From a virus, in the IMG/VR virus record IMGVR_UViG_3300032676_001489, positions 1 through 21,497 of that record: 21,497 bases of DNA; one strand, 5' to 3'. Below, piece by piece: positions 2,865-17,825 of this stretch. The translations under genes were made by a program, and so were the position numbers. The notes beneath the pieces were generated by a model that did not search any database, was not told the origin of the DNA, and saw nothing but the letters and a program-made list of their open reading frames with translations. Each line of letters starts with the position of its first letter. Position 1 is the stretch's first letter.

Positions 2865-3794
2865 ATGAAACCTACATTCAATCCTAATATGTTCGAAAGC
2901 ATTAAAAATGCTTTAGAAAGCGCTAAAACAAAAAATGCAGATAGCAACTTTAGAAATATTATTTCAATTGCTAAGCCAGGTAATTACCTAGTTCGTTTAT
3001 TACCTAACACTAGCAACCCTGCAGAGACCTTTTTACATTATTTTCATCATGGCTGGAACAGTGAGCGGGATGGTAAGTATGTAAGCATTACATCACCAAG
3101 TACTTGGCATGAACGCTGCCTAATCAGTGAAGCTTATTTTAAGATCTTAAGAGATGGCACAAAAGAAAATCAAGAAAAAGCTAAAGCTTGTCTTCGTCGT
3201 AAAGAAAACTGGTATGTAAACGTTTATGTTATTCAAGATCCTAATGAACCAAAGAATAACGGTACTGTAAAGATTCTTCGCTATGGTAAGCAGTTAAACG
3301 AAATTATTAATTCAGCTATTAGTGGAGACGATTCGCAAGAATTCGGTGAAAAGATTTTTAAGTTAGATGAAACTGGTTGCACGTTCCGTATTAAAGCAGA
3401 ACAAGTAACTGATAAGCCAGGTGCACCTAAATATCCAAAATATACTGCTTCTAAGTTCCTTTCTCCAGGACCTATTGAAGGTTTTGATGAAAGTAAGATT
3501 CCTGAAATTTATAATAGTACATATGATCTGAATACATTGGTTGAACATAAAACACCTGATGAAATTCAAGAATTCCTTAATATTCACTTTTATAATAACG
3601 AATTCAATACGTCTTCATCTACCCCTACAGAAGTAAATGATGTAGATGATGATGTACCATATGAAGCACCTAAGATTGCTGTTAAAGCAGCTGTTAAACC
3701 AGTACAAACTGCTAAACCAGCTCACGTAGCAGTTGAAGATACTGAGAACGATGATAAGGTAAAGGCAATACTAGAAGGTTTAGATAACCTCTAA
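2865..3794 (+). CDS. 32: Single-stranded DNA-binding protein, T4 gp32-like
   Basis: This 309-aa protein would coat single-stranded DNA during replication, recombination and repair. It follows the gp32 layout: a basic N-terminus for cooperative binding, an OB-fold core starting near residue 30 (KPGNYLVRLLPN), a Zn-subdomain region (about 58-110), the diagnostic NWYVNVYVIQDPNEPKNNGTVK-type strand (about 115-136, matching NILVVKDP..PENEGKV in T4), then RYGKQLNEII. The C-terminus is acidic (EDTENDD near residue 290), as expected for the partner-binding tail. Unusually, of the four T4 zinc ligands (H64, C77, C87, C90), only a His (H61 or H62) and one Cys (C85) have clear equivalents; the other two positions are Ser. 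Zinc binding may therefore be lost. Confidence 0.9.
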   Translation: MKPTFNPNMFESIKNALESAKTKNADSNFRNIISIAKPGNYLVRLLPNTSNPAETFLHYFHHGWNSERDGKYVSITSPSTWHERCLISEAYFKILRDGTKENQEKAKACLRRKENWYVNVYVIQDPNEPKNNGTVKILRYGKQLNEIINSAISGDDSQEFGEKIFKLDETGCTFRIKAEQVTDKPGAPKYPKYTASKFLSPGPIEGFDESKIPEIYNSTYDLNTLVEHKTPDEIQEFLNIHFYNNEFNTSSSTPTEVNDVDDDVPYEAPKIAVKAAVKPVQTAKPAHVAVEDTENDDKVKAILEGLDNL

Positions 3795-3799
3795 GCTAA

Positions 3800-4396
3800 A
3801 TGACTGAAGAACAACGCAGACAACAAATTATGCAAGCTCGCCAGCAGGCCATGAACCGGCCTGCTGCGCCTGCTATGTCAGATGCAGATGCTGAAAGAAT
3901 AGCCGGTAATACTCAAGGCTTGACTAAAGAGCAAATGATTGCTATTGCTATGCTTGGCAAGATGGTATCTAATGATATAGGCGGTATTAAAAAGAACGCT
4001 GTTGGGGATAGCCTTAAAGTAACGGATGTGGATATGTCTAAAGTTATGCCTTCAAATGTTATGAGAGCAGCTGGTATGCAGATACCACCACAAGCACCAC
4101 AGCAAAGACCGCCTCAACAACCTGTTTATCAGCAACCTGCACCTCAACAAGTAGAGCATAATAATTTTCAGTTTGTTGCACCGCCCGTGCAGCAGGAACA
4201 AGCAATTGTTCAACCATATTCTGATCCTAACCAATTAGAGTTTGATTTAAACAAAAAAGTTCAATACGAAGATATCATGAATGCTATTGATAATCTTCAA
4301 TCTTCAGTTAAAATGTTAAACGATAAAGTTAACACCCTAATCGAATCTAATAATAAAAAAAAACCGAAGATAGCAAATGGAACTCAAACTGGTTAA
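3800..4396 (+). CDS. Pro/Gln-rich hypothetical protein with C-terminal coiled coil, 198 aa
   Basis: I recognise no family. The N-terminus is Gln/Arg-rich (EEQRRQQIMQARQQ), followed by a conserved-looking segment LTKEQMIAIAMLGKMVSNDIGG (written here only to mark residues about 40-61), a low-complexity Pro/Gln stretch (about 95-145), and a heptad-like C-terminus (IMNAIDNLQSSVKMLNDKVNTLI) that should form a short coiled coil. A structured end joined to a Pro/Gln linker suggests a tether or scaffold. It sits between the SSB and the clamp and overlaps the clamp gene by 20 bases, so it is probably co-expressed with replisome parts. Confidence 0.7.
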   Translation: MTEEQRRQQIMQARQQAMNRPAAPAMSDADAERIAGNTQGLTKEQMIAIAMLGKMVSNDIGGIKKNAVGDSLKVTDVDMSKVMPSNVMRAAGMQIPPQAPQQRPPQQPVYQQPAPQQVEHNNFQFVAPPVQQEQAIVQPYSDPNQLEFDLNKKVQYEDIMNAIDNLQSSVKMLNDKVNTLIESNNKKKPKIANGTQTG

Positions 4397-5111
4397 AAAA
4401 GATTTTGCGGACAACTTCTTAAATGTTGTAAGTAAAACCGTTGATGTCGCATCTATTAAAGTTACTAAAGATGGTTTATACACTATATGTAATAAACCTG
4501 ACACCAGTATCATATTACTTGGTAAGTATAATTATGTAACGGGGATAGATAATGAACAATCCCTTAACATAGGGGATATTAAAAAACTCTTACGTGTTAT
4601 TGAGTGTATAGAAGAAGATGATATTACTTTTACTATAAATAGTAATCATCTTTTATATAAGTCTAATACTACTCAATTTAAGTATCATTTCTTAGATGAT
4701 ACAGCTGTACCTAAAGTAGCATTAAAAAAGGAGAAAATAGAAGCATTAGAGCTAGATACGTTTTTTGATATTAACTACAGAAAACTACAAGAAATCCTTA
4801 AAGCTAGTGCTTTTGCTACGACTACTAATAAAATTTATCTTTACGGTCAACCTGACGGAGTGTACTGTGAATTAGGTGATAAAGAAACAGACAATACAGA
4901 TAGTATATCTCTTAAAGTAGTAGATAAAGTAGAAGGTCAACCTTTATCTCAAGTAATACCGTTTAATCTAGATATTTTTAGAGTGTTGTCTGGTGTTAAG
5001 TTTGAAAACGCAAGAGTAGGTATAAATCTTAAACTCAAGGTCATGTCTTTTTACGTTAAAACTACACCAGAAACAGAGTTTAAGTTTATTATATCGGGGT
5101 TAGTAAAATAA
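4377..5111 (+). CDS. 45: DNA polymerase sliding clamp, T4 gp45-like
   Basis: This 244-aa protein matches the trimeric sliding clamp (T4 gp45 is 228 aa), which encircles DNA, tethers the polymerase and, in T4, activates late transcription. Supporting features are the start with FADNFLNVVSKTVD, alternating beta strands and two helices, the SLNIGDIKKLLRVIE segment typical of gp45 domain 1, and the end FKFIISGLVK. Lysines facing the ring (KEKIEAL, KLKVMSF) are present. The ATG lies inside the end of the preceding gene (20-base overlap) and the stop overlaps the next ATG (TAATG). T4-type late promoters need gp45 for activation, and such promoters occur from 9665 onward, so this clamp may drive their transcription. 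The clamp-loader genes 44 and 62 are not in the window. Confidence 0.88.
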   Translation: MELKLVKKDFADNFLNVVSKTVDVASIKVTKDGLYTICNKPDTSIILLGKYNYVTGIDNEQSLNIGDIKKLLRVIECIEEDDITFTINSNHLLYKSNTTQFKYHFLDDTAVPKVALKKEKIEALELDTFFDINYRKLQEILKASAFATTTNKIYLYGQPDGVYCELGDKETDNTDSISLKVVDKVEGQPLSQVIPFNLDIFRVLSGVKFENARVGINLKLKVMSFYVKTTPETEFKFIISGLVK

Positions 5112-5440: not shown

Positions 5441-6119
5441 GTCCGTAAAATCTTTTAATATGTCAAACGAAGTAAAACACCCAACACTTCCTACAGCTAA
5501 TAGTAGTATGATTACTACAGAAGAAGATAGGAAAGCTATTATTGATAAAGCAGCAGAAGCGTATTCAACATTTCTAGATGCTCTACGTATTGATTGGCGT
5601 AATGACGTCAATAGTGCTGATACACCTCGTCGTGTAGCTAAAGCATATGTATGTGACCTTATTAAAGGTTGCTATGAAGGCCCGCCTAAGATTACTACTT
5701 TTCCATCAGATGGTTATGATGGTATTGTTAGTCAGATGAATATACCTGTTGTATCTATGTGTTCGCACCATCACCTATCTTTTACTGGTGTTGCTCATGT
5801 AGCTTACATACCTGATAAAAACGGTCAGGTTATTGGTCTTTCTAAACTTAATCGTATTGTAGAACATTATGCTCGTCGTCCTCAAATACAAGAAGGATTA
5901 ACGGTTCAGATACATAAAGCTATTGATCAACTATGCACAGGCAATCAGGGTGTAGCAGTTATTCTTAAATGTACCCATACTTGTGCTTGCCATCGCGGTG
6001 TAAAGCATCACGGTTGTGCTATGATTACTTCTAAGTTATCTGGGGATTTTATGAACGAACCACAAACTCGTAAAGAATTTTATGATTTTGTTGCTTCTGC
6101 GGAGCGAGATACTAAGTAA
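5394..6119 (+). CDS. folE: GTP cyclohydrolase I
   Basis: This enzyme converts GTP to 7,8-dihydroneopterin triphosphate, the first step of folate and of 7-deazaguanine (queuosine/preQ0) synthesis. The zinc and catalytic residues are present: C123 with H125 and H126 in [10 protein letters not shown], and H195 with C197 in [11 protein letters not shown]. The core [20 protein letters not shown] is a textbook FolE helix. The residue after the first zinc Cys is Ser, where E. coli FolE has Glu. Numbers assume the first ATG (5394), which overlaps the previous gene by 47 bases; ATG 5460 (residue 23) removes the overlap and may be the true start, because the core begins only near residue 40. No queC, queD or queE lies nearby, so the product could feed either host folate or a modified-guanine pathway. 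Confidence 0.93.
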
Positions 6120-9154: not shown

Positions 9155-9669
9155 TATTTCTTAGTGGTGAAGTCACTGAATCTAATTCAGTAGATATAGC
9201 TAAACAGTTATTTGCATTAGATAAAAAATCTAATAAAGATATACTCTTAATTATAAACTCTGATGGCGGCAATATTGAAGATGGTATCTTTTTAGCAAAC
9301 ACCTTTAAGCTATTAAAAAGCGATGTGGCTATATTAGTACCATCTAATGCTCAAAGTACCGGTACCTTTATATTAGCGACTGGTACAAAAGGTAAACGTA
9401 TCATAATGCCAGGAGCTGTTGCAATGATGCATGGTTCTATTTATGCTATATCTGAACTACCTCATAAAGTACAAAAGAGCGATATAGATTTTCAAGAAAC
9501 TCGAGAAAACTATATAGCTCAAAGATTAGTAGAATGTGGATATAAACATAAAGAACACAGTCTTGCTTCAGAATACCATCACTACGTAGATGTAGAAATT
9601 ATTGAAGCTGGTTTAGCGGATGTAATGATTAACTCTTTAGAAGAACTATATAGGGTAATTAACTTATAA
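9106..9669 (+). CDS. ClpP-like serine protease
   Basis: This 187-aa protein has the ClpP/crotonase fold signature: INSDGGNIEDG (residues 50-60, equivalent to INSPGGSV.AG), the nucleophile Ser84 in NAQSTGTF (ClpP AASMGAF), and His109 in AMMHGSIY (ClpP MIHQP). The third catalytic residue is unclear: counting from the GLAD end, the position of ClpP Asp falls on Tyr157 with Glu156 beside it. ClpP-like genes are common in marine T4-like phages; possible roles are prohead processing, host protein turnover with a host Clp ATPase, or an oligomeric protease of its own. The ATG lies 49 bases inside the preceding gene. The first perfect late promoter overlaps its stop. Confidence 0.82.
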   Translation: MPTNRKTIKTLGSDRVIFLSGEVTESNSVDIAKQLFALDKKSNKDILLIINSDGGNIEDGIFLANTFKLLKSDVAILVPSNAQSTGTFILATGTKGKRIIMPGAVAMMHGSIYAISELPHKVQKSDIDFQETRENYIAQRLVECGYKHKEHSLASEYHHYVDVEIIEAGLADVMINSLEELYRVINL

Positions 9670-9672
9670 ATA
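9665..9672 (+). promoter_or_regulatory. T4-type late promoter (TATAAATA)
   Basis: This is a perfect match to the T4 late -10 element, spanning the stop codon of the ClpP-like gene and ending five bases before ATG 9678. In T4, transcription starts about six bases after the element, which here is the A of the ATG. Confidence 0.75.
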
Positions 9673-9677
9673 TTATT

Positions 9678-9875
9678 ATGGCATACTCAGCAAGAATTAA
9701 AAAAGACGGGGCTGTAGACATTACCGATGCTCTTACCGGTCAAATAAAGTTTACTATAAGTGCTAAATCCGCCGGTATAGGCGGAGTATCTATAAGTGGT
9801 GATACTGCCACTATAATGCTCAAAGACGGCACCACTCAAGTTTACGATCTTAAAAAACGTCAACAAATACGTTAA
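9678..9875 (+). CDS. Small beta-rich hypothetical protein, 65 aa
   Basis: This protein is unrecognised. The short sequence alternates Gly/Asp turns with beta strands (ARIKKDGAVDITDALTGQIK, then GVSISGDTATIMLKDGTTQVY), as in small virion decoration or spike-like proteins. It follows a perfect late promoter, so a structural role is plausible. The stop shares a base with the next ATG. Confidence 0.7.
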   Translation: MAYSARIKKDGAVDITDALTGQIKFTISAKSAGIGGVSISGDTATIMLKDGTTQVYDLKKRQQIR

Positions 9876-10132
9876 TGAACACAGAGTTTATTATAGCCGA
9901 TACCTCTGTAAGATATATGAATGCAGCAAATGTGTTACAAGAGTTTCTGTTTTACTGCAAAGATAATAATTGGAGCCGCAATATTGATAACACTGTTAAG
10001 TATTCCGATTCTAATGCTGCAATTGATAGTGCTAAAAAACTTAAAGCAGAAGACGGTCTAGATAAAAAGGTATTTTTATTTCAAAAAAACAGTAATGTTA
10101 TTAATATAGGCGAAGTAAAAGTACCTATTTAA
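9875..10132 (+). CDS. Hypothetical protein, 85 aa
   Basis: This is an unrecognised alpha/beta protein (ANVLQEFLFYCKDNNWSRNI, then IDSAKKLKAEDGLDKKVFLF). The start overlaps the previous stop (TAATG). An AACAAATA sequence (9862-9869) lies five bases before the ATG, matching the late-promoter spacing but with two mismatches, so its own promoter is uncertain. Confidence 0.65.
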   Translation: MNTEFIIADTSVRYMNAANVLQEFLFYCKDNNWSRNIDNTVKYSDSNAAIDSAKKLKAEDGLDKKVFLFQKNSNVINIGEVKVPI

Positions 10133-10158
10133 TAACAGGTTGAAGCTCTTTAAACTCA

Positions 10159-10166
10159 AGTAAATA
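10159..10166 (+). promoter_or_regulatory. Late promoter variant (AGTAAATA)
   Basis: This element ends five bases before ATG 10172 and is followed by CTATT, which resembles the T4 extended late consensus TATAAATACTATT. It lies in a 39-base gap between genes. Confidence 0.6.
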
Positions 10167-10171
10167 CTATT

Positions 10172-10441
10172 ATGCTCATATCTTTAACTAACGCAAATCC
10201 GTCTCACAGAAACAAAATAGTGGTTATTAACACTGATTTTATTGTGAGTATGCACCGTAACATTATAACTAGAGAAGATGCTACTGTAGAAGAAGTTACA
10301 TTTGTACATTGCCCGCCTCACGGTACATGGGAAGTACAGGAAACTATAGAACAAGTTATGGGGTTAATTGCTCCTACTGGTAAGCTTTTAACAGAAAATA
10401 CAAAAAAAAGCGTAAAGAAAGAAAAGACCAAGTTACTTTAA
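10172..10441 (+). CDS. FlbD-like small protein, 89 aa
   Basis: The pattern LISLTN....IVVINTDFIVSMHRNI......VTFV.....WEVQETIEQVMGLI recalls the FlbD family of small beta-rich proteins (I.LT..NG..F.LN.DLIE.IE...T.I.L..G.....E....V...I). The match is by eye and weak. The C-terminus is a basic tail (TKKSVKKEKTKLL). It is transcribed just ahead of tRNA-Pro and probably shares its transcript. Confidence 0.6.
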   Translation: MLISLTNANPSHRNKIVVINTDFIVSMHRNIITREDATVEEVTFVHCPPHGTWEVQETIEQVMGLIAPTGKLLTENTKKSVKKEKTKLL

Positions 10442-10449
10442 AGTTTACT

Positions 10450-10526
10450 CGGGATGTAGGTCAGCCTGGTAGACCGCCTGCTTTGGGAGCAGGATGACGC
10501 GTGTTCAAATCCCGCCGTTCCGACCA
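10450..10526 (+). tRNA. tRNA-Pro (UGG)
   Basis: This is a 77-nt cloverleaf with an encoded CCA (10524-10526). The acceptor CGGGATG pairs with CGTTCCG (two G-U/U-G pairs and one A-U), the anticodon stem is CCTGC/GCAGG, the loop is TTTGGGA with anticodon TGG at 10484-10486, and the T-loop is TTCAAAT. The T-stem has one mismatch (T-C). The UGG anticodon reads CCA and CCU codons, which an AT-rich virus would prefer. Confidence 0.93.
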
Positions 10527-10550
10527 ATTTATTGCATATTACAAATAATT

Positions 10551-10558
10551 AGTAAATT
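10551..10558 (+). promoter_or_regulatory. Candidate late promoter (AGTAAATT)
   Basis: This is a weaker variant ending five bases before ATG 10564, in the gap after tRNA-Pro. The spacing matches the other late elements. Confidence 0.4.
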
Positions 10559-10563
10559 AGTAT

Positions 10564-11130
10564 ATGGAACATTTTCATTACCGAATACCTGGTTGGTTTA
10601 CCTTTCCTAAGCTTTATACACATATGGTAGAGCGGTATGATAATGCGCACTTTGTAGAGGTAGGAGCTTTTCAAGGTGCTTCTACAGCTTATATGGCTGT
10701 AGAAATAGCTAATTCTAAAAAAAATATCAAACTAACAACAGTAGATGTATGGGACCGTTATACTATAGACGGGCTGTCTCTTAAAGACCCAGATAGTGTA
10801 CCTATTGATTTTGTTTGGCATTTATACAAAGAAAACATTAAACCTGTAGATCATTTAGTAGAGTCTCTAAGAATGAGTTCTGTAGAGGCTGCTAAACGTT
10901 TTCCAGATGAATCGTTAGATTTTGTTTTTATTGACGCTAATCATGTATACGAAGCTGTAATGCACGATTTACATGCTTGGTACCCTAAAATAAAAAAAGG
11001 AGGACATATAGCTGGACACGACTACACCGCTAATGATGACGATGTGCGTAGAGCAGTAAAAGACTTCTTTGGGGTAAAAGACGATAGATATGCTTGTGGA
11101 GAGTGGAGTTGGTGTGTATTCAAGGAGTAA
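10564..11130 (+). CDS. Class I SAM-dependent methyltransferase
   Basis: This 188-aa protein has the Rossmann-fold methyltransferase pattern of the Methyltransf_24/cephalosporin-hydroxylase-like group: the SAM-binding loop VEVGAFQGAS (31-40), an acidic residue at the end of strand 2 (VDVWD, D61), LDFVFIDANHVYEAV (118-132) with the family's FIDxxHxYE motif, and the GGHIAGHDY strand (147-154). Members methylate sugars or small hydroxyl groups in surface polysaccharides and natural products. It heads a run of three transfer enzymes (methyl, sulfo, glycosyl), which suggests glycan decoration. The acceptor is unknown. Confidence 0.82.
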   Translation: MEHFHYRIPGWFTFPKLYTHMVERYDNAHFVEVGAFQGASTAYMAVEIANSKKNIKLTTVDVWDRYTIDGLSLKDPDSVPIDFVWHLYKENIKPVDHLVESLRMSSVEAAKRFPDESLDFVFIDANHVYEAVMHDLHAWYPKIKKGGHIAGHDYTANDDDVRRAVKDFFGVKDDRYACGEWSWCVFKE

Positions 11131-11131
11131 C

Positions 11132-11758
11132 GTGCTACCTGATGTAAACATTTCCCACCAACATAAAGTTATATGGTGGTTACCAACTCGTAACGGTACA
11201 CGGTCAGTTGGTTTATTTTTAGGTACATTATTGTTTGAAAAACAAGGTAAAGTTATAGGTCCTGAATGGATGCCTACTCACACGCTTTGCTACCCAGATA
11301 ACATAGAAGGTTATAGTTTATATTTAAATGTACGTAACCCTTACTCTAGAGTCTTGTCATTTTGGCATTGGCATAGAGAGTTAAGCAAGACTGATAAACG
11401 ATGCCTTGACACATTTAATACCAATTTTTCAGATTATGTTAGTAAAGCCAACTACAAGTTTCTTGATGACCCTCATTACGAAACAATTCTTAAAGCTGTA
11501 ACCACAAAGAAGAAAATAAAGGCTAACTTTGTTAAATTAGAAAACTTAAAAGAGGATATTTTAAAAATACCCTTTATTGATATAAAATCTCCTGCTATAT
11601 TAAACAACTACAACAAATACATTGTTAATAATCAATTTTTAAGCGCTGATACGGATTATAGGTTGTTTTACACTGAAGAAACTGCCCAGTTGATATATAA
11701 TGAATTTAAAGAAGCTTTTAATATGTTTGACTATGATAAAGATAGCTGGAAGTTATAA
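11132..11758 (+). CDS. Sulfotransferase-family protein
   Basis: Two PAPS-binding motifs are visible: a 5'-phosphosulfate loop PTRNGTRSV (residues 18-26 from the chosen start) and a 3'-phosphate motif NVRNPYSRVLSFW (66-78, family RDP..R..S.W). The layout resembles the carbohydrate sulfotransferases (Sulfotransfer_2 type), enzymes that move sulfate from PAPS to sugar hydroxyls. I choose GTG 11132 because AAGGAG (11122-11127) lies four bases upstream; an ATG at 11090 is in frame but would overlap the methyltransferase by 41 bases. The length of 208 aa is short for the family. No PAPS-synthesis genes are in the window, so PAPS would come from the host. Confidence 0.75.
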   Translation: MLPDVNISHQHKVIWWLPTRNGTRSVGLFLGTLLFEKQGKVIGPEWMPTHTLCYPDNIEGYSLYLNVRNPYSRVLSFWHWHRELSKTDKRCLDTFNTNFSDYVSKANYKFLDDPHYETILKAVTTKKKIKANFVKLENLKEDILKIPFIDIKSPAILNNYNKYIVNNQFLSADTDYRLFYTEETAQLIYNEFKEAFNMFDYDKDSWKL

Positions 11759-11766
11759 TTTATAAA

Positions 11767-11774
11767 AATAAATA
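11767..11774 (+). promoter_or_regulatory. Late promoter variant (AATAAATA)
   Basis: This element matches the late consensus at seven of eight positions and ends five bases before ATG 11780. It is in the 21-base gap after the sulfotransferase gene. Confidence 0.6.
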
Positions 11775-11779
11775 GTTTT

Positions 11780-12352
11780 ATGATTCACATTGTTACAGCT
11801 TATACAAGAACTCCTGTTTTTTTGAATAGAATTTACAAGTCTATTGAAAAACTTAATATAGAGTGTCATTGGTATATTGTTACAACTAAAAAAGACGTTG
11901 ATGTAACGAATTATAAAAACACCACAGTACTAGTCAAAGAAGATGGAATGCCAATGCATTCCGGTGTTAACCACTATTATGATAAAGTAGAAGATACCGG
12001 TCAGTGGGTATATGCCCTAGATGATGATAATTTAATGCACGAAAACTTTACTTTCGTGGTACCACACACTCAAGTACCGGGTAACGACATGCTTGTTGTA
12101 AGTCAACAGTTAAAAAATGGTGTAAGAACTATTGAAAACGTAGAAAGTATAGCAGTAATGAAAATTGATCAAGCTCAATTTTTAGTACGTAGAAGTGCAG
12201 TAAGTAATTTAAGGTACTGGTTAGTGTATAGAGGAGATGGCCACTTTGCAGCAGAGATGCGTATAAAAACACTAGAAGCCTATAGAGGCGTGATAATACT
12301 ATATGTAGTAGCTAGTTACTACAACGCGCAAACAGAAATCTTTCCTGTTTAA
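11780..12352 (+). CDS. Small GT-A type glycosyltransferase
   Basis: This 190-aa protein has the GT-A pattern: an N-terminal strand MIHIVTAYTRTP followed by a helix (FLNRIYKSIEKL), a second strand WYIVTT, and the metal/nucleotide-sugar motif WVYALDDDNLMHE with D81-D82-D83 acting as the DxD. GT-A enzymes move a sugar from a UDP- or GDP-sugar to an acceptor. The protein is compact and lacks a membrane anchor. Its stop codon overlaps that of the convergent oxygenase gene within the palindrome GTTTAAAC (the stops at 12349-12352 share two bases). Confidence 0.72.
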   Translation: MIHIVTAYTRTPVFLNRIYKSIEKLNIECHWYIVTTKKDVDVTNYKNTTVLVKEDGMPMHSGVNHYYDKVEDTGQWVYALDDDNLMHENFTFVVPHTQVPGNDMLVVSQQLKNGVRTIENVESIAVMKIDQAQFLVRRSAVSNLRYWLVYRGDGHFAAEMRIKTLEAYRGVIILYVVASYYNAQTEIFPV

Positions 12353-12987
12353 ACGTCCTTTTCGTACCAAGACGTAAAAGCATAACGAATACCATTAGTA
12401 GTAGGTCTAACCCCGTGTATATAGTTACGATCGCAAGGAAAACCAAATAAAAGACCGTTTACTGGTTTTACATCAAAAGCATGATCCGGCATTATGGTTT
12501 CACCACCATTAAAATTGTCGTTTAAATATATAACACTTGTATACACTCGGGTAGGTACATAATTAGGTATCCATTTGCTTGTTGGTTTTTTATACGTATT
12601 ATATCCAGTCGCTTCTGGCATACCTAAATCTCGTTCACTTTCTACCTCAGGATACTCACAATCTGCGTGATACACAAACGGTGCAGTCTGAGCACTTACC
12701 CCACACCAATTGACCTTCAACTTACCTAATTCTGGAAATTGCTCTTGTACTAACGTTACAGCTCTATCCTGTATTTCTTTTACGTATTTAGCTCTATAAT
12801 CCGTTTCTTTACCCAAATACATATCTTGCAACGATCTCCAACGGTACCATCTACCCTGTTCATCATTTCTATTGTTTTTTTCTTCTGACCACTTATCTTC
12901 AAGAGCAAGGCTTTTAACAAAATTTCTTTCTAGTGTAGTGATAAAATCGCTTACAACTAACATGTGTTTTGCTCTTGATATATTCAT
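12349..12987 (-). CDS. 2-oxoglutarate/Fe(II)-dependent oxygenase (prolyl-4-hydroxylase-like)
   Basis: This 212-aa protein has the double-stranded beta-helix oxygenase signature: iron ligands H107 and D109 (YHADCEYPE) and H191 (IHGVRPT), with R201 placed to bind 2-oxoglutarate. YTSVIYLNDNFNGGETIMP (149-167) and VKPVNGLLFGFP (173-184) are typical core strands of the P4H group. Such enzymes hydroxylate proline, other protein residues, or small substrates using O2 and 2-oxoglutarate. The first 100 residues, helical and charged, are specific to this protein. It is the first of three oxygenases of this class within 5.2 kb and is transcribed opposite to its neighbours. Confidence 0.83.
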   Translation of the reverse strand: MNISRAKHMLVVSDFITTLERNFVKSLALEDKWSEEKNNRNDEQGRWYRWRSLQDMYLGKETDYRAKYVKEIQDRAVTLVQEQFPELGKLKVNWCGVSAQTAPFVYHADCEYPEVESERDLGMPEATGYNTYKKPTSKWIPNYVPTRVYTSVIYLNDNFNGGETIMPDHAFDVKPVNGLLFGFPCDRNYIHGVRPTTNGIRYAFTSWYEKDV

Positions 12988-13019
12988 AAAGGTATATATA
13001 TTATTTAAATAATACCTTT
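12988..13019. repeat. Inverted repeat in the divergent gap before tmRNA
   Basis: Outer arms AAAGGTAT (12988-12995) and ATACCTTT (13012-13019) frame a perfect 14-base palindrome, ATTATTTAAATAAT (13000-13013). It lies between the - strand oxygenase and the + strand tmRNA and contains late-like elements on both strands, so it may be a shared divergent control site. Confidence 0.5.
12993..13000 (-). promoter_or_regulatory. Late promoter variant on - strand (TATATATA)
   Basis: Read on the - strand, this element matches TATAAATA at seven of eight positions and ends five bases before the oxygenase ATG (12987), the same spacing as on the + strand. Confidence 0.55.
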
Positions 13020-13032
13020 AATTATCAACTTT

Positions 13033-13040
13033 AATAAATA
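13033..13040 (+). promoter_or_regulatory. Candidate late promoter for the tmRNA/tRNA-Glu unit (AATAAATA)
   Basis: Transcription from this element would start near 13046, leaving an 18-base leader for RNase P to remove before the tmRNA 5' end at 13064. A second candidate, TTTAAATA (13004-13011), lies within the inverted repeat just upstream. Confidence 0.45.
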
Positions 13041-13063
13041 TTACGTTATTTGACAACATTTTT

Positions 13064-13444
13064 GGGCCTGTACCAGATTCGACTCTGTGGCAGATGTACT
13101 AGAAGCAAGCAGGATTGTTAGATCCTTTATAAACTAACACAAAAACAAACGGCATCATTCAAAGCCTCAAGAACGCAGTAGCTTCTGTGAAAGAATCTCT
13201 TTCCTTTAGCGAAAGCTTCGCACTCGCTGCTTAATCAGCGATCGGTTGTAGTATAGATTCTCGCTATATATTATAACCGTCATTCAGCGAGACTGACTAT
13301 TCAATGGTAGTAGAATAGCAGGAACACTACCAAACAACTTGTATATCAGCACTATGGTTATACATTTTATTAATAGTGCTAAGCTTGTAGAAACTGGTAA
13401 GAACGTTACGGAACACAGGGGTGCAACTCCCCTCAGGTCCACCA
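13064..13444 (+). ncRNA. ssrA: tmRNA (ssrA), one-piece, phage-encoded
   Basis: tmRNA rescues stalled ribosomes and tags the unfinished protein. The acceptor stem GGGCCTG/CAGGTCC contains the G3-U70 wobble pair that marks alanine identity, followed by encoded ACCA. The 5' part shares CCAGATTCGAC with bacterial tmRNAs (TGGATTCGAC in E. coli). Pseudoknot 1 is clear: GGAT/ATCC with GTTAG pairing to CTAAC. Eleven bases after it, GGC at 13151 is the expected resume codon (E. coli also has eleven), and the frame runs 27 codons to TAA at 13232, ending in SFSESFALAA, the classic degradation tag end. The T-arm AGGGG-TGCAACT-CCCCT differs from E. coli only in the second loop base (G for T, position 55) and in the stem. 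Total length is 381 nt (E. coli 363). It is followed six bases later by tRNA-Glu. Confidence 0.93.
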
Positions 13445-13450
13445 CTTTAT

Positions 13451-13525
13451 GCCCTCATAGGATAATAGTTAGTCTACCGCACTTTCACTGCGGGCATCCC
13501 GGTTCGAATCCGGGTGGGGGTACCA
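13451..13525 (+). tRNA. tRNA-Glu (UUC), copy 1
   Basis: This is a 75-nt cloverleaf with encoded CCA. The acceptor GCCCTCA pairs with TGGGGGT (a G1-U72 wobble and one further U-G pair), the anticodon stem is CCGCA/TGCGG, the loop is CTTTCAC with anticodon TTC at 13484-13486, and the T-arm is CCCGG-TTCGAAT-CCGGG. It starts six bases after tmRNA and so is likely co-transcribed with it. It is identical to copy 2 (15252-15326) except for two adjacent D-loop bases (TA here, CG there). The CCA end overlaps a late promoter. Confidence 0.95.
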
Positions 13526-13531
13526 TAAATA
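13524..13531 (+). promoter_or_regulatory. Late promoter (CATAAATA) overlapping the tRNA-Glu 3' end
   Basis: This element matches the late consensus at seven of eight positions. Its first two bases are the last two of the tRNA CCA, and it ends five bases before ATG 13537. The spacing decides the start of the next gene. Confidence 0.65.
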
Positions 13532-13536
13532 TTATG

Positions 13537-14133
13537 ATGAATTTTAAGCAATACTACACAGAAGCTAGACTGCAAGATAACCAAACCACAGAAGGTGTAG
13601 ATAATTTTATTGCTGATTTACAAATTACATTTCCGCAATATCAAAACATTATGGAAGATATAAAAAGTGTTATACTTTCCACTAAATGTCCCAGTATAGC
13701 TTTTGAGCCTTTAAGAGGCGCCTTAGGTATATCTAAACATGATAAATGTATTATTAATACTCAAATTTTATTAAATAGGAATATAACATATGCTTTGTAT
13801 GTTATATTTCATGAATTAGCTCATCAAAAACAATATTCAAAGTACGGAGAAGATATAGCAGCTGATATATTTTTAGACAACATATCAGCCGATGAAGCCG
13901 CTAAAAAGCTCCTCTCTATCGAAAATACTGCTGACAGGTGGTCTCAAATGATTACCACTAGAATTTTAAACAAGCACGGTATAAAAGTAGATCATATACC
14001 AATGATGTATAAAAATGTGAGTTTTAATAATGTAAAACTTTATGTTGAAAATATTAGAAAATTAATTAAAACGAATAGAATTACAACAATAGAACAGGCT
14101 AATAATTTAATTTATAGTATGATAAAGTTTTAA
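13537..14133 (+). CDS. HExxH metallopeptidase with capsid-targeting-like N-terminus
   Basis: This 198-aa protein has a zincin motif FHELAHQ (HExxH) with a downstream ENTADRW (about 125-131 residues in) that may supply the third zinc ligand. The start is set by a late promoter five bases upstream; a longer frame from 13339 runs back through tmRNA and tRNA and is spurious. The first residues, MNFKQYYTEA, resemble the capsid-targeting sequences of T4 internal proteins (MKTYQEFIAEA), which send proteins into the prohead for injection into the host. If so, this would be an injected protease. Alternatively it acts on the cell wall or in assembly. It has no signal peptide. Confidence 0.72.
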   Translation: MNFKQYYTEARLQDNQTTEGVDNFIADLQITFPQYQNIMEDIKSVILSTKCPSIAFEPLRGALGISKHDKCIINTQILLNRNITYALYVIFHELAHQKQYSKYGEDIAADIFLDNISADEAAKKLLSIENTADRWSQMITTRILNKHGIKVDHIPMMYKNVSFNNVKLYVENIRKLIKTNRITTIEQANNLIYSMIKF

Positions 14134-14135
14134 TT

Positions 14136-14189
14136 TGTTGTGTAGCTCAGTTAGTAGATCTCTTGGTTTGAGTCCAGGACGGACAACTA
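14136..14189 (+). pseudogene. tRNA-like remnant lacking the anticodon arm
   Basis: The sequence reads as a tRNA with the middle cut out: TGTTGTG, TA, a D-arm GCTC-AGTTAGTA-GATC (14145-14160), then directly a T-arm CTTGG-TTTGAGT-CCAGG (14162-14178), an acceptor-like ACGGACA, and A-CTA where A-CCA is expected. Acceptor pairing holds only at the outer positions. The anticodon arm and variable loop (about 20 bases) are missing. Either it is a decaying tRNA or the tRNA-like head of a structured RNA (see the following hairpins). Confidence 0.5.
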
Positions 14190-14310
14190 TCTTTAATCCA
14201 AATAGAAGTGATAGTTTATTCCTATGGATATTTTCATTATTATATGAAAATAACGAGTAAGTATTTGTGCTGGTGACATTATCCAGCATAACAACCAAAG
14301 CCCCCGGGCT
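14185..14310 (+). ncRNA. Row of hairpins, candidate structured RNA of unknown function
   Basis: Four hairpins follow the tRNA-like remnant in a stretch without a gene: AACTATC/GATAGTT (14185-14216), TATTTTCAT/ATGAAAATA with a 6-base loop (14229-14252), TGCTGG/CCAGCA with a 9-base loop (14268-14288), and AGCC/GGCT with a CCCG loop (14299-14310). None is followed by a T-run, so they are not plain terminators. The end is a purine/CA-rich single strand leading to ATG 14338. It could be a small RNA or a leader controlling the 61-aa ORF. Confidence 0.4.
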
Positions 14311-14337
14311 GCGGTTCTAAACAAAACAACAACACAT

Positions 14338-14523
14338 ATGCAAGTATTAATCGTAACAAGTTATCTTGCTGTTGGTGGTCTTGTTAGACTCGCGTACGAG
14401 GACTATAAGATAGGAAACAGTAAGACAAAGACAGAGTTCATTAAAAGTGTTAAAAAGTTTTGGGTAGGGTTTAAAAAAGCGTGGAAAGACGCTATTTCAG
14501 CCCCACATCAACACTTGTTTTAA
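14338..14523 (+). CDS. Small protein with hydrophobic N-terminus, 61 aa
   Basis: This protein is unrecognised. Residues 1-19 are hydrophobic (MQVLIVTSYLAVGGLVRLAY) and may anchor it in a membrane; the rest is a basic amphipathic helix (KTEFIKSVKKFWVGFKKAW, then KDAISAPHQHLF). A short membrane segment plus basic helix is typical of small phage membrane-active or regulatory proteins. It has no late-promoter element at the usual spacing but lies behind a structured RNA region and is closed by a strong terminator, so it forms its own unit. Confidence 0.6.
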   Translation: MQVLIVTSYLAVGGLVRLAYEDYKIGNSKTKTEFIKSVKKFWVGFKKAWKDAISAPHQHLF

Positions 14524-14548
14524 TACTATAAGTTAGTAGCAAACAATA

Positions 14549-14579
14549 CCCAGTATAGAAAACTATACTGGGTTCTTTA
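14549..14579 (+). terminator. Rho-independent terminator
   Basis: A 10-bp perfect stem, CCCAGTATAG/CTATACTGGG (14549-14558 and 14563-14572), closes an AAAA loop and is followed by TTCTTTATT. It ends the unit of the 61-aa ORF just ahead of the next late promoter. Confidence 0.85.
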
Positions 14580-14599
14580 TTGACAAATCTTAATGCAGC

Positions 14600-14607
14600 T
14601 ATAAATA
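14600..14607 (+). promoter_or_regulatory. T4-type late promoter (TATAAATA)
   Basis: This is a perfect match, right after the terminator, ending five bases before ATG 14613. It lies inside a longer open frame from 14580 and shows that 14613 is the true start. Confidence 0.75.
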
Positions 14608-14612
14608 CATTT

Positions 14613-15248
14613 ATGAGCTTAACATTACAAGATACAATTGGGGTTATACCTAATGCCTTTCCAGATGATCTTTGCGACACTATATTGCAACTTTATGAAA
14701 CTGCAGCACTTGAAGGAGAAACGTATCAAGGCTTTTCCGGTCGCGGTACAAACAATTTAAACGTAAAAAACTCCATAGATTTAAACCTTTTAAATTATAG
14801 TAACACCCCAGCTATTAAAAGTTTAAATGATAAAATTTGTGATATGTTCAACACAAATATCAACAAATATGCAACGAGCTTTCCTGATCAAGACAAATGG
14901 TCAGGCATGAATAATTTTAATTCTCCTACTGTATTTGATGTTTTACAAGTACAAAGATACAAACAAGGAGAAGGTCACTACAATGCTTGGCATCATGAAA
15001 TAATGGGATATAGATCCTGCAAAAGGTTTTTTGCCATACTAGTATATTTAAACGATGTAGAGGAAGGCGGAGAAACTGAATTTTTATATGCAGGTTTAAA
15101 GGTTAAACCTAAAAAGGGTACTCTTGTAATACACCCAGCTGGTTTTCCATACGTACACAAAGGACATATGCCTATTACTAGTGATAAAACTATATTAATC
15201 ACCTGGCTATGCTTTGATATGCCTGCTAGGTTAGCTGATGCAGTTTAA
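14613..15248 (+). CDS. 2-oxoglutarate/Fe(II)-dependent oxygenase with HxE iron motif
   Basis: This 211-aa protein has core strands FFAILVYLNDVEEGGETEF (139-157) and VKPKKGTLVIHPAGFPYVHKG (164-184, written in part), typical of the P4H-like group. The iron triad appears to be H127 and E129 (WHHE, an HxE in place of the usual HxD) with H182 (YVHKG), and K192 could bind 2-oxoglutarate. The start is fixed by the late promoter. It lies between the two tRNA-Glu copies, so it could have come with the cassette. Substrate unknown; hydroxylation of a protein or glycan is likely from the family. Confidence 0.8.
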   Translation: MSLTLQDTIGVIPNAFPDDLCDTILQLYETAALEGETYQGFSGRGTNNLNVKNSIDLNLLNYSNTPAIKSLNDKICDMFNTNINKYATSFPDQDKWSGMNNFNSPTVFDVLQVQRYKQGEGHYNAWHHEIMGYRSCKRFFAILVYLNDVEEGGETEFLYAGLKVKPKKGTLVIHPAGFPYVHKGHMPITSDKTILITWLCFDMPARLADAV

Positions 15249-15251
15249 CAC

Positions 15252-15326
15252 GCCCTCATAGGATAACGGTTAGTCTACCGCACTTTCACTGCGGGCATCC
15301 CGGTTCGAATCCGGGTGGGGGTACCA
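15252..15326 (+). tRNA. tRNA-Glu (UUC), copy 2
   Basis: This copy has the same 75-nt structure as copy 1, with anticodon TTC at 15285-15287 and an encoded CCA. It differs from copy 1 only at two adjacent D-loop positions. It starts four bases after the oxygenase stop. A run of eight or more T residues follows the CCA and may end the transcript or help 3' processing. Confidence 0.95.
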
Positions 15327-15343
15327 TTTTTTTTGAATATTAA

Positions 15344-15351
15344 AGTAAATA
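15344..15351 (+). promoter_or_regulatory. Candidate late promoter (AGTAAATA), longer spacing
   Basis: This is the same octamer as at 10159, but eight bases before ATG 15360, so a two- or three-base leader would result. It lies in the gap after tRNA-Glu copy 2. Confidence 0.5.
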
Positions 15352-15359
15352 ATCTTATT

Positions 15360-15995
15360 ATGAGCAAATCAACATCAATAGATATCAATTATCTTTCGTA
15401 TGCATGCAACACTCAAGGCACATGCGCTTGGTCATTAAGTGCTGGTAGTCCAGATATCGTACAGGTATCTGCCCCTACAGATAATAGTACGGCATTTTTG
15501 CCTTCCAACCCGACTTCTTTTGCAAGTATTCTTAAATTAGCTGATAGCGCTATTATTAATCTTTCAGGTTTAGTAGTAGATCAAGCTAGCGAAAACGCAG
15601 TAGATGCCAATAATAAAGTCTCAGCAGTACTTGAAGGAGTGTTTGGTAACTCTACCCCCGGTGTAGGCAATCAAATTTTTAGTGTAAAGGGTGGTTGTAG
15701 TGTTAGTATTAGAGGCACTTTAAAAGGCGCTGGCAATAGGTTAAATGCAGATATACTTGTAGATAACTGGTCGGATCAGGATTATAGTTCTAGTACTGTT
15801 GATTTGACCCAAGCTAAGCACGAAACAGGTAGAAAACTAAATGTAGTATATCGTATTGGATCAAGCAAAGTAATCGGTGACTGTAATAAACTTTTATTAC
15901 CGTCAATTGGTTTAACAATTTATTTCTATGTTAAACTTTTAGTGCGTAAAGTTATGGGAATCAAGCAGGGACAAAAGGGCCCGAGCTTTTTATAA
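15360..15995 (+). CDS. Beta-rich hypothetical protein with C-terminal hydrophobic segment, 211 aa
   Basis: I recognise no family. The start MSKSTSIDINYL at 15360 follows a late-like promoter; a frame from 15315 is longer but would begin in the tRNA 3' end. The body is beta-rich with many Ser, Asn and Gly (SGLVVDQASENAVDANNKVS, then KGGCSVSIRGTLKGAGN), like a beta-helix or fibre-type fold. The last 35 residues are different: a hydrophobic stretch (LLLPSIGLTIYFYVKLLV) and a basic tail, suggestive of a membrane anchor. It could be a virion surface protein or a membrane-tethered factor. Confidence 0.6.
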   Translation: MSKSTSIDINYLSYACNTQGTCAWSLSAGSPDIVQVSAPTDNSTAFLPSNPTSFASILKLADSAIINLSGLVVDQASENAVDANNKVSAVLEGVFGNSTPGVGNQIFSVKGGCSVSIRGTLKGAGNRLNADILVDNWSDQDYSSSTVDLTQAKHETGRKLNVVYRIGSSKVIGDCNKLLLPSIGLTIYFYVKLLVRKVMGIKQGQKGPSFL

Positions 15996-16049
15996 AAATC
16001 CGTTTTACAAAAAAAAACAAATAAACGTATATATTTTTTGGCAATAATA

Positions 16050-16057
16050 TATAAATA
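16050..16057 (+). promoter_or_regulatory. T4-type late promoter (TATAAATA)
   Basis: This is a perfect match ending six bases before ATG 16064, in a 68-base AT-rich gap. The downstream gene ends in a strong terminator, so this is a single-gene late unit. Confidence 0.72.
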
Positions 16058-16063
16058 TAGAGT

Positions 16064-16831
16064 ATGAAGAAACTATTAACATTCCTTACTTTGGTAGTAT
16101 TAACAACTGCAGCTATTGCACAAGTAGCTGATATACCTTCACCTATTACTGGTGTAAGCGTAAATGCTGGTTTTACTTCCAAACTTATTGACCGTGGTAA
16201 CTTAGCTGGCACTGATTATATCACTGCTGGTGTTGGTTTAGACGTCTACAACATTGATGTTGCTGTAGAAACGTATAGCCGTTACAATGGTTTAACAACA
16301 TTCAGTTCTACTACAGTAGCTGGTAAAACAACTACAGTAGCAAAAACTGATGCATCCGGTCTAAAGCGTATCTATACAACATTAGGTTATGTTTTTACAT
16401 CACCTCTTGCTAATCTTACGCTTGGCGCACAACTACGTAACACACAAGGTAGTGAGTTACTCGCAGGTGGTTTAACCAGCGACACTCTACCCTTTGTAAA
16501 GCTTAATGGTAAGCTTTTCGGTAATACAGTTGTTTGGGATGGTGTAGCTGTTGACGACTTAAAGAACCGCACTAACAACTATGAAGCGAATTTACGTCTT
16601 CCAGTTGGAGTAGGTTATGGCTTAAAGGTTGTACCAGCACTTGGTGTTGGTTTTAACGATCCAAGCGCTAACACAATACCTGCTTTTGCTGCTAATAAAA
16701 AGTATGCAACAGCTGGTGCAGGCCTTGAATGGAAAGGCTTACAGGCTAACTTATTCGTACATCGTGGTGATTTCACAAGCACAGCTTCTCAAATCACTGG
16801 TTACACAGTAGGTTATTCCTACAAATTCTAA
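16064..16831 (+). CDS. Secreted outer-membrane beta-barrel (porin-like) protein
   Basis: This 255-aa protein starts with a typical Sec signal peptide (MKKLLTFLTLVVLTTAAIAQ, cleavage likely after A19). The mature part is made of alternating-residue amphipathic strands with Gly and aromatic residues (GVSVNAGFTSKLI, YITAGVGLDVYNIDVAVETY, TTLGYVFTSPLANLTLGAQL) and ends in GYTVGYSYKF, the C-terminal aromatic signature recognised by the BAM complex. It should therefore insert into the host outer membrane. Size suits an 8-12-strand barrel. It has its own late promoter and terminator, so it is made late as a separate unit. Likely roles are blocking superinfection by changing the surface or importing nutrients; a host-derived origin is plausible. 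Confidence 0.78.
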   Translation: MKKLLTFLTLVVLTTAAIAQVADIPSPITGVSVNAGFTSKLIDRGNLAGTDYITAGVGLDVYNIDVAVETYSRYNGLTTFSSTTVAGKTTTVAKTDASGLKRIYTTLGYVFTSPLANLTLGAQLRNTQGSELLAGGLTSDTLPFVKLNGKLFGNTVVWDGVAVDDLKNRTNNYEANLRLPVGVGYGLKVVPALGVGFNDPSANTIPAFAANKKYATAGAGLEWKGLQANLFVHRGDFTSTASQITGYTVGYSYKF

Positions 16832-16854
16832 GTTATACAAATACTTAAACAATT

Positions 16855-16882
16855 AACCCCTTACTTCGGTAAGGGGTTTTTT
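16855..16882 (+). terminator. Rho-independent terminator with TTCG tetraloop
   Basis: The stem CCCCTTAC/GTAAGGGG (16857-16864, 16869-16876), extended by two A-T pairs, closes a very stable TTCG loop and is followed by six T. It ends the beta-barrel gene and lies between convergent genes. Confidence 0.93.
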
Positions 16883-16886
16883 ATTG

Positions 16887-17504
16887 TTAATAACCGTAAG
16901 CTACACCTAATTGTGTACGTCCATCGTATGCAAAATTAGCATAAGGGCCGTTCTTGTCTACATAATGCATAAAGACCTGTATTTGTTTGGTACCTTCAGT
17001 ATAAGCATTACGCCAATGAGGTATATCCAGGCCTCTATAAACTAACATATCACCAGCTTTAAGGTAAACTGGTATGTTTGTTTTTTGTTTGTTCTGTACC
17101 CATATAGGCCAAATATCTCCATTAAGCTCTACACATAATGTAGCAGATATTTCACAAGATGGCCTATCAACATGTCTAGCCATTACTGCTCCTGGATAAT
17201 AGATACGAGAACAGGCATAAGTTGGTAATAACTCTAAGCCTGTTAGTTTTTCCATCTTAGGTTTAAGCATTTGCAATAAACCTTCAAATATAAAAGTACC
17301 GTTTGCTATTAAAGATGTGTCAGAGTTGATAGTAAAACTATTTTCTACCATACCATCTTTAAATGCAAACTTATCGTTTTTATCTGTTTTTTGAGTAGCA
17401 TATACCCAATCTCGATACAACTGTACCTGATTAGATAGTAATTCTAGTACTTCAGGATCTACTATTCTACGATATGTTTCGTATCCGTCGTCTTTAAAAG
17501 CCAT
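16887..17504 (-). CDS. 2-oxoglutarate/Fe(II)-dependent oxygenase, third copy
   Basis: This 205-aa protein has iron ligands H111 and D113 (MARHVDRPSCE) and H163 (IPHWRN) in core strands SATLCVELNG and VYLKAGDMLVYRG (146-158). K173, in GTKQIQVFMHY, is a possible 2-oxoglutarate ligand. It is not close to the other two oxygenases outside these motifs, so they are separate subfamilies, not recent duplicates. The N-terminal half is helical. A late-like element (TTTAAGTA) lies five bases before its ATG on the - strand. Confidence 0.8.
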   Translation of the reverse strand: MAFKDDGYETYRRIVDPEVLELLSNQVQLYRDWVYATQKTDKNDKFAFKDGMVENSFTINSDTSLIANGTFIFEGLLQMLKPKMEKLTGLELLPTYACSRIYYPGAVMARHVDRPSCEISATLCVELNGDIWPIWVQNKQKTNIPVYLKAGDMLVYRGLDIPHWRNAYTEGTKQIQVFMHYVDKNGPYANFAYDGRTQLGVAYGY

Positions 17505-17509
17505 ACAAA

Positions 17510-17517
17510 TACTTAAA
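17510..17517 (-). promoter_or_regulatory. Candidate late promoter on - strand (TTTAAGTA)
   Basis: Six of eight positions match the late consensus; it ends five bases before ATG 17504. The weaker match lowers confidence, but the spacing is exact. Confidence 0.4.
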
Positions 17518-17765: not shown

Positions 17766-17825
17766 AAGATTCGTTTACTATACTTACTTGATTTATTTAA
17801 AATAACATATAACATATACAACAAT

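Follow-up and report, generated by a model that had tools for sequence, protein, structure and literature searches.

Boxes resembling T4 late promoters close to start codons suggest leaderless or near-leaderless late mRNAs in an uncultivated T4-like phage and its relatives

The DNA considered here, which we call the window, is a 21,497-base fragment of an IMG/VR virus record (IMGVR_UViG_3300032676_001489) from an uncultivated, T4-like phage. The window encodes a gp41-type helicase, a gp32-like single-stranded DNA-binding protein, a sliding clamp, an exonuclease and a ClpP/head-protease-like protein. Present in a later block are two 2OG-Fe(II) oxygenases and a methyltransferase (identified with Pfam), three transfer RNAs (tRNAs) and a transfer-messenger RNA (tmRNA). 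Eleven start codons in the window are preceded at close range by a box, TATAAATA or a variant of it, that resembles the late promoters of phage T4. An earlier note on the window had listed these boxes and proposed that transcription from them begins on the A of the ATG, so that the late messenger RNAs (mRNAs) are leaderless. We consider it probable that the boxes are gp55-type late promoters that abut start codons and give leaderless or near-leaderless late mRNAs. Established by computation are the element and its spacing, an association with structural genes, the lack of Shine-Dalgarno (SD) sites and the presence of a gp55 gene in the clade of the window.

All eleven spacings given in that note were reproduced. 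With the gap counted as the number of bases between the end of the box and the ATG, it is 5 at nine ATGs, 6 before 16064 and 8 before 15360 (Table 1), and the exact octamer stands at three of these sites. Two further exact copies, at 4634(+) and 1640(-), both lie within long open reading frames (ORFs). The core TAA[AG]TA (TAARTA below) is kept at eight of the eleven sites. Three boxes had been set apart as weak variants, which is appropriate for those at 9862 and 10551, where the core is lacking, but not for that at 17510(-), which has the TAAGTA form common in the relatives. The box at 12993(-) also lacks the core and had not been flagged. The core was identified at gap 5 before 5 of 28 automatically called ATG starts, whereas 300 dinucleotide-preserving shuffles of the window gave 0.13 on average and never more than 2. 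ATG 13537 is outside these 28 starts, the caller having chosen ATG 13354.

A search of IMG/VR with gp32 returned 51 loci, and the comparison set consists of six larger relatives of 55-141 kb (G001, G003, G004, G006, G007 and G009). Three other contigs (G002, G005 and G008) were gene-called and left out of all counts, and genes without an in-frame ATG or too close to a contig end were dropped. The window and these relatives are not independent: the gp32 of G001 is identical to that of the window, and G003 and G004 are alike. In the six relatives, TAARTA is located at gap 5-6 before 67 of 569 starts (30 at gap 5 and 37 at gap 6; shuffle mean 5.4, maximum 12). The scan of spacings against shuffled sequence, which the earlier note had put forward as a genome-wide check, is thus positive in these relatives. 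At gaps 26-64 the mean is 0.95 per position. Ranked at gap 5-6 among hexamers of equal composition, TAAATA is first of 15 and TAAGTA first of 60. A hexamer-by-offset scan spanning -60 to -6 placed TAAATA or TAAGTA at -11/-12 on top in six of seven contigs, the window included; the exception, G004, is led by ATAATA at -13. Among the matches listed for the seven contigs there is neither an SD-like hexamer nor a -35 hexamer. The codon that follows at gap 5 or 6 is ATG in 70 cases, GTG in 3 and TTG in 0, which is a soft test given that the gene calls are anchored on ATG. A/T-rich sequence overwhelmed an unanchored expectation-maximization motif search over all upstream regions. No intergenic enrichment was seen for a Bacteroidetes-type TANNTTTG box (density ratio 0.79). 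The comparison of intergenic TAARTA with the reversed motif (2.76 versus 1.64 in the clade, 2.46 versus 2.37 in the phage HTVC008M) is not decisive.

Spacing of this kind could arise from the gene calls, either if an upstream gene ends on the TAA of the box or if the first-ATG rule of the ORF caller generates the gap. Gaps of 6, 9 and 12 put TAA in the frame of the ATG, and 10 of the 67 gap-5/6 elements coincide with an upstream stop. However, the other 57 do not, gap 5 is out of frame, and TAA is followed by RTA in 67 of 165 cases at these places versus 30 of 561 at gaps 20-40. The same caller yields no elements at gap 5-6 in four other phages (T4, KVP40, Syn9 and S-CRM01), strand-switch genes carry the box in 29 of 96 cases, and annotated starts were used for the HTVC008M counts given below. 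The reading-frame, caller and strand-switch controls largely refute an artefact, and we regard this explanation as very improbable.

The boxes are tied to gene class. Genes were classed by T4-like homology, and TAARTA at gap 5-13 was counted as a box. On this basis, boxes precede 19 of 29 structural and 0 of 54 replication-type genes in the six relatives (Fisher 8e-12); genes of the same family in different contigs are not independent, and by gene family the counts are 9 of 11 and 0 of 12. Among ortholog pairs with co-terminal starts, the element persists in 60 of 75 where the first member carries it, compared with 21 of 330 pairs where the first member is boxless. An ATG-anchored conservation profile is no more than suggestive (35 versus 108 pairs).

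Searches with HTVC008M, T4 and Syn9 proteins (tblastn) identified a T4-like core spread over the six relatives, including gp17, gp18, gp19, gp20, gp21, gp23, gp43, uvsX and uvsW. Also identified, between uvsW and gp47, were homologs of gp55 in five of the six (G003, G004, G006, G007 and G009). G001 ends inside gp47, which adjoins gp55 elsewhere, and the window does not span the gp55 locus either. The sliding clamp, which is encoded in the window, is an activator of late transcription in T4. The 8-bp late box of T4 is described in passages of PMC2988020 as lying about one helical turn upstream of the start, with A(-13) as a variant first base; the late-box variant of phage Aeh1 described there affects exactly the first two octamer bases. 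If A(-13) is the first base, the box spans -13 to -6, and a gap of 5 would put +1 on the A of the ATG, in agreement with the earlier note. Gaps of 6-12, as seen in the clade, would correspond to leaders of 1-7 nucleotides should the T4 geometry hold. The mRNAs are thus predicted to be leaderless or nearly so from the position of the box and the T4 numbering.

The cleanest case of a fixed gap of 5 is HTVC008M, recorded as a cultured marine phage with a SAR11 host, and not the window. Octamers with at most one mismatch to TATAAATA occur at a gap of exactly 5 before 11 of its 197 annotated starts, and every other gap accounts for 4 or fewer. Among the genes involved are gp4, gp48, gp25, gp2, the tape measure, CsgF, a baseplate protein and two 2OG oxygenases. 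With 167 automatically called starts, TAARTA is found at gap 5 before 12 (shuffle mean 0.58, maximum 3). Across 17 whole phage records, exact ATAAATA-N5-ATG occurs 9 times in HTVC008M, 8 in Mosig and 4 in Melnitz, and 0-3 times in the other 14. The gp2 gene has TATAAATA-N5-ATG in all three of these phages, at approximately 39% protein identity.

HTVC008M makes wide use of SD sites (98 of 197 annotated starts). None of its 11 gap-5 genes has an SD 4-mer at gap 4-10; in three, such a 4-mer lies outside that range (gap 1, 11 or 13). An SD site precedes every one of the five genes whose exact octamer lies 18 or more bases before the start (gp8, gp20 and those at 46310, 51699 and 111768). In the automatic set, genes with a box at gap 16 or more have an SD site in 14 of 19 cases, and those with one at gap 5-8 in 1 of 13. 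In the six relatives of the window, SD-like 4-mers precede 0-3% of genes, compared with 44-57% in HTVC008M, Mosig, Melnitz and T4. In the relatives and the window, respectively, 0 of 25 and 0 of 4 genes whose octamer-like box lies at gap 5-8 have such a 4-mer. The scarcity of SD sites reported in the earlier note is confirmed, as SD-like 4-mers at gap 4-11 precede 0% of the 28 window starts. However, such sites are almost absent everywhere in the clade, early genes included, so their absence is uninformative there and does not by itself argue for leaderless late mRNAs.

This clade-wide lack could instead indicate that the A/T-rich box near -11 is a translation-initiation signal that replaces SD, rather than a promoter, and that the mRNAs begin further upstream. 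Consistent with this, the box is frequent between tandem genes 6-20 bases apart (33 of 70), and Flavobacterium johnsoniae is described, in passages of PMC6847099, as lacking SD yet having leaders that average 33 nucleotides. On the other hand, the same host has to translate the replication-type genes, all without a box, T4-type late promoters have this very octamer, and the SD-rich HTVC008M carries the gap-5 box precisely where SD is missing. Only 13% of S-CRM01 genes have an SD site, and this phage keeps 27 octamer-like boxes at gap 16-25, which implies that the absence of SD alone does not shift the box to the ATG. We consider a translation signal unlikely. At gap 16-26, TAARTA counts are 36 in S-CRM01 (shuffle mean 3.9, maximum 12), 14 in Syn9 (1.8, 6) and 11 in KVP40 (4.3, 10). 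The 12 in T4 (6.2, 16) are no excess by this measure.

Viral contigs in IMG/VR were sampled by scanning for TATAAATA-N(0-24)-ATGGCA and for the same pattern with a scrambled octamer, TATATAAA, with at least 120 pieces each. Matches that open at least 60 codons or run off the piece were kept, and shorter ones were dropped. Among the matches listed, the commonest gap is 5 (12 of 100), gap 7 has 8, and there is a second mode at 18-23; the scrambled octamer has 0 of 78 at gap 5. Again among the matches listed, SD-like sites accompany 5 of the 40 boxes with a gap of at most 10 and 27 of the 57 with a gap of at least 14; for the scrambled octamer the counts are 4 of 32 and 12 of 33. T4-like core genes are encoded on 9 of the 12 gap-5 pieces listed.

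The boxes could also be late promoters with short but real leaders, the +1 position departing by a few bases from the T4 rule, so that most leaders are of 2-10 nucleotides and zero length is exceptional. The clade has 67 elements at gap 5-6 and 68 at gap 7-12, and ortholog pairs with co-terminal starts keep the element (60 of 75) more than the exact gap (36 of 75). The concentration of annotated HTVC008M starts at gap 5 points the other way, as does the peak at exactly this gap in the viral-contig sample, among the matches listed. We rate short leaders on most of the mRNAs as possible but doubtful.

Returning to late promoters that abut the start codon, a number of observations weigh against this interpretation, or against its strictest form. 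Virion structural genes were not recognized among the window genes, and the designation "late" is taken from the relatives. The fixed spacing proposed in the earlier note is indeed anchored on start codons, on both strands, but in the clade it takes the form of gap 5-6 with a tail to about 12. Gaps 7 to 12 are also enriched (18, 11, 16, 12, 8 and 3 elements), so many leaders would be of 2-7 nucleotides rather than zero. Of the T4 octamer, the clade conserves only the TAARTA part and not the two bases that precede it. Orthologs of window genes were sought in five other contigs, covering 10 genes (13537 was left out), and at least one was found for 8 of the 11 genes. Only that at 16064 has the element at the same gap in all orthologs, and most window sites are unconserved.

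The boxes are T4-late-like and, in the relatives, tied to structural genes, but 10 of the 29 structural genes are without a box at gap 5-13. These are gp4 and gp18 (G003 and G004), gp18 (G006), gp19 (G003), gp6, gp15, gp23 (G004) and gp23 (G009). In the case of G003 gp19, a second ATG would give gap 6. Neither of the two contigs in which gp23 was found has a box before it, and in three contigs the gp18 box is at gap 20-21. Conversely, phoH, which is in neither class, has a box in both contigs where it was found (counting it as early gives 2 of 56), and each of the six relatives has TAAATA at gap 7-8 before an unlabelled gene of about 191 amino acids that lies in the uvsX-gp43 stretch, among replication genes. 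Because these two genes carry the box, the early/late split is imperfect. A further point against the interpretation is that tblastn (HTVC008M and Syn9 queries, E 1e-4) recovered no gp33, which is a small divergent protein. The gp55 proteins of G003, G006, G007 and G009 have a shorter middle and, by alignment, seemingly lack the C-terminal end of T4 gp55. In T4 this end binds the sliding clamp, and clamp coupling may differ in the clade of the window. In HTVC008M there is no excess of TAARTA at gap 16-26 (8; shuffle mean 5.9, maximum 15), and the counts for Mosig and Melnitz at gap 5 do not exceed the shuffle maxima (4 versus 4 and 2 versus 3).

By analogy with T4, the TATAAATA/TAARTA boxes would function as T4-type late promoters and would be recognized by the host RNA polymerase in complex with a gp55-like sigma of the phage. 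On the T4 geometry, the first transcribed base would be the A of the ATG or one lying up to about 7 bases upstream. Late mRNAs made in this way would have no leader or almost none, and translation would begin, without SD, from an AUG located at the 5' end or close to it. As in the T4 system (gp55/gp33/gp45), TATAAATA or a close variant precedes virion genes, and gp55 and the clamp are encoded in the clade. Unlike that system, only the TAARTA part is conserved in the clade, and the box abuts the ATG, whereas T4, Syn9, KVP40 and S-CRM01 have no box at gap 5-6. HTVC008M, Mosig and Melnitz share TATAAATA-N5-ATG with the clade, but have SD at 44-54% of genes and leadered late genes, whereas the clade has almost no SD.

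Leaderless middle and late phage mRNAs are already known from the Thermus phage phiYS40, where IF2 is raised and IF3 lowered (passages of PMC3594737). The likeness lies in a temporal class of phage genes expressed from leaderless mRNAs. The promoters of phiYS40 are not described as gp55-type in those passages, whereas the boxes here are T4-late-like, and we know of no IF2/IF3 change in the clade of the window. In Deinococcus-Thermus, a -10 box adjacent to ORFs gives leaderless mRNA, for about a third of D. radiodurans genes according to passages of PMC12340547. The resemblance is in a -10 type box lying a few bases ahead of the ORF, but those are host promoters and not a phage late class. Phage transcripts in general are described as often leaderless in a paper on phage AR9 (passages of PMC5312081), and late promoters of cyanophages, NATAAATA, are reviewed in passages of PMC2984593. 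Melnitz has 15 late promoters identified by BLASTN with TATAAAT, and leaders are not discussed in the relevant passages (PMC9004378). The passages available from a pelagiphage transcriptome paper (PMC12753301) do not name HTVC008M. Among the open-licence literature matches listed, as far as their passages go, there is no report of leaderless late mRNAs in T4-like phages, an absence that is weakly supported. If the interpretation is correct, a textbook T4 late promoter system has been rewired in aquatic phages to make leaderless mRNAs. This would bear on virion-protein production in these phages, would provide an annotation rule for start codons of unknown phage genes, and would help to explain why late-promoter prediction was unsuccessful in a survey of pelagimyophages (as stated in passages of PMC7029224).

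A broader, tentative proposal, which we judge to be possible but more probably wrong than right, is that pelagic T4-like phages operate in a dual mode and that the late programme of the clade of the window has largely moved to the near-leaderless one. The position of a gp55-type box would select, gene by gene, between leaderless AUG-first translation and leadered SD translation. Genes would switch between relatives, an example being gp13: in HTVC008M its box lies at gap 8 and there is no SD, and in Mosig the gap is 20 and an SD-like site is present. In this scheme, the ribosomal protein bS21 encoded by three marine phages might bias ribosomes between the modes.

Genes for bS21 (PF01165) were identified in HTVC008M, Mosig and Melnitz. 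There is no match in the six clade contigs, which are partial genomes, or in T4, Syn9 and S-CRM01. As a general companion of the near-ATG box, bS21 was rejected: PF01165 occurs in only 3 of 12 records, and without a match in the six partial clade contigs it cannot be the general answer.

The individual sites differ in how well they are kept in orthologs (Table 1). The weak box at 9862, with no element in five orthologs, is probably due to chance. Two TAAGTA elements lie outside the earlier list. That at 6113, within the replication block, may be a coincidence. That at 17781(-) perhaps marks a late gene with a leader of about 10 nucleotides. The ORF at 16887-17504(-) has as its sole Pfam match a betacoronavirus domain (18 residues, no stretch passing alone), which we take to be spurious.

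Table 1. Boxes and other features of the window, with features of other genomes named in the text
Feature	Positions	Strand	Placement or match	Orthologs and remarks
gp32-like single-stranded DNA-binding protein	2865..3794	+	PHROG 224, E 4.2e-37	no TAARTA at gap 5-12 upstream
Sliding clamp (DNA polymerase processivity factor, gp45-type)	4377..5111	+	PHROG 223, E 3.4e-9	
TAAGTA	6113..6118	+	gap 6 to ATG 6125	overlaps stop of upstream ORF; TAAATA at same gap in G007 and G009
TATAAATA, exact	9665..9672	+	gap 5 to ATG 9678	two orthologs found, neither with an element at gap 5-12
AACAAATA, weak, no TAARTA core	9862..9869	+	gap 5 to ATG 9875	ATG overlaps stop of upstream ORF
AGTAAATA, TAAATA core	10159..10166	+	gap 5 to ATG 10172	TAAATA at gap 9 in 1 of 3 orthologs
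tRNA-Pro	10450..10526			
AGTAAATT, weak, core broken	10551..10558	+	gap 5 to ATG 10564, downstream of tRNA-Pro	TAAGTA at gap 7 in 1 of 3 orthologs
AATAAATA	11767..11774	+	gap 5 to ATG 11780	element absent in sole ortholog found
TATATATA, weak, no TAARTA core	12993..13000	-	gap 5 to ATG 12987(-)	no ortholog found
tmRNA	13064..13444	+	Rfam RF00023, 78 bits (gathering score 47)	complete
tRNA-Glu(ttc)	13451..13525	+		
CATAAATA	13524..13531	+	gap 5 to second ATG (13537) of ATGATG	first two bases are last bases of tRNA-Glu call
tRNA-like stretch, shortened	~14135-14190	+		
TATAAATA, exact	14600..14607	+	gap 5 to ATG 14613 (2OG-Fe(II) oxygenase)	TAAATA at gap 9 in sole ortholog
tRNA-Glu(ttc)	15252..15326	+		
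AGTAAATA, TAAATA core	15344..15351	+	gap 8 to ATG 15360	no element at gap 5-12 in two orthologs
TATAAATA, exact	16050..16057	+	gap 6 to ATG 16064	best-conserved site; TATAAATA at gap 6 in 4 of 4 orthologs (G003, G004, G006, G007), 51-73% protein identity
TTTAAGTA, TAAGTA core	17510..17517	-	gap 5 to ATG 17504(-)	no ortholog found
TAAGTA	17781..17786	-	gap 15 to ATG 17765(-)	same gap in sole ortholog (G006)
Unlabelled ~191-aa gene, example copy in G001	39472..40047			
bS21, HTVC008M	91237..91392		PF01165	
bS21, Mosig	9983..10132	-	PF01165	
bS21, Melnitz	35461..35619		PF01165	

A host search of genome_contigs returned no relative of the protein starting at 16064 and no exact match to the tRNA-Glu pattern. 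The tmRNA was not reported by ARAGORN; it seems to be of the one-piece type, because model positions 1-374 match in order. The two tRNA-Glu genes are near-identical by eye, and a late-type box comes after each; the weak box at 10551 comes after tRNA-Pro. Also present is a shortened tRNA-like stretch, seen by eye and called by neither ARAGORN nor Rfam, which is possibly a tRNA remnant.

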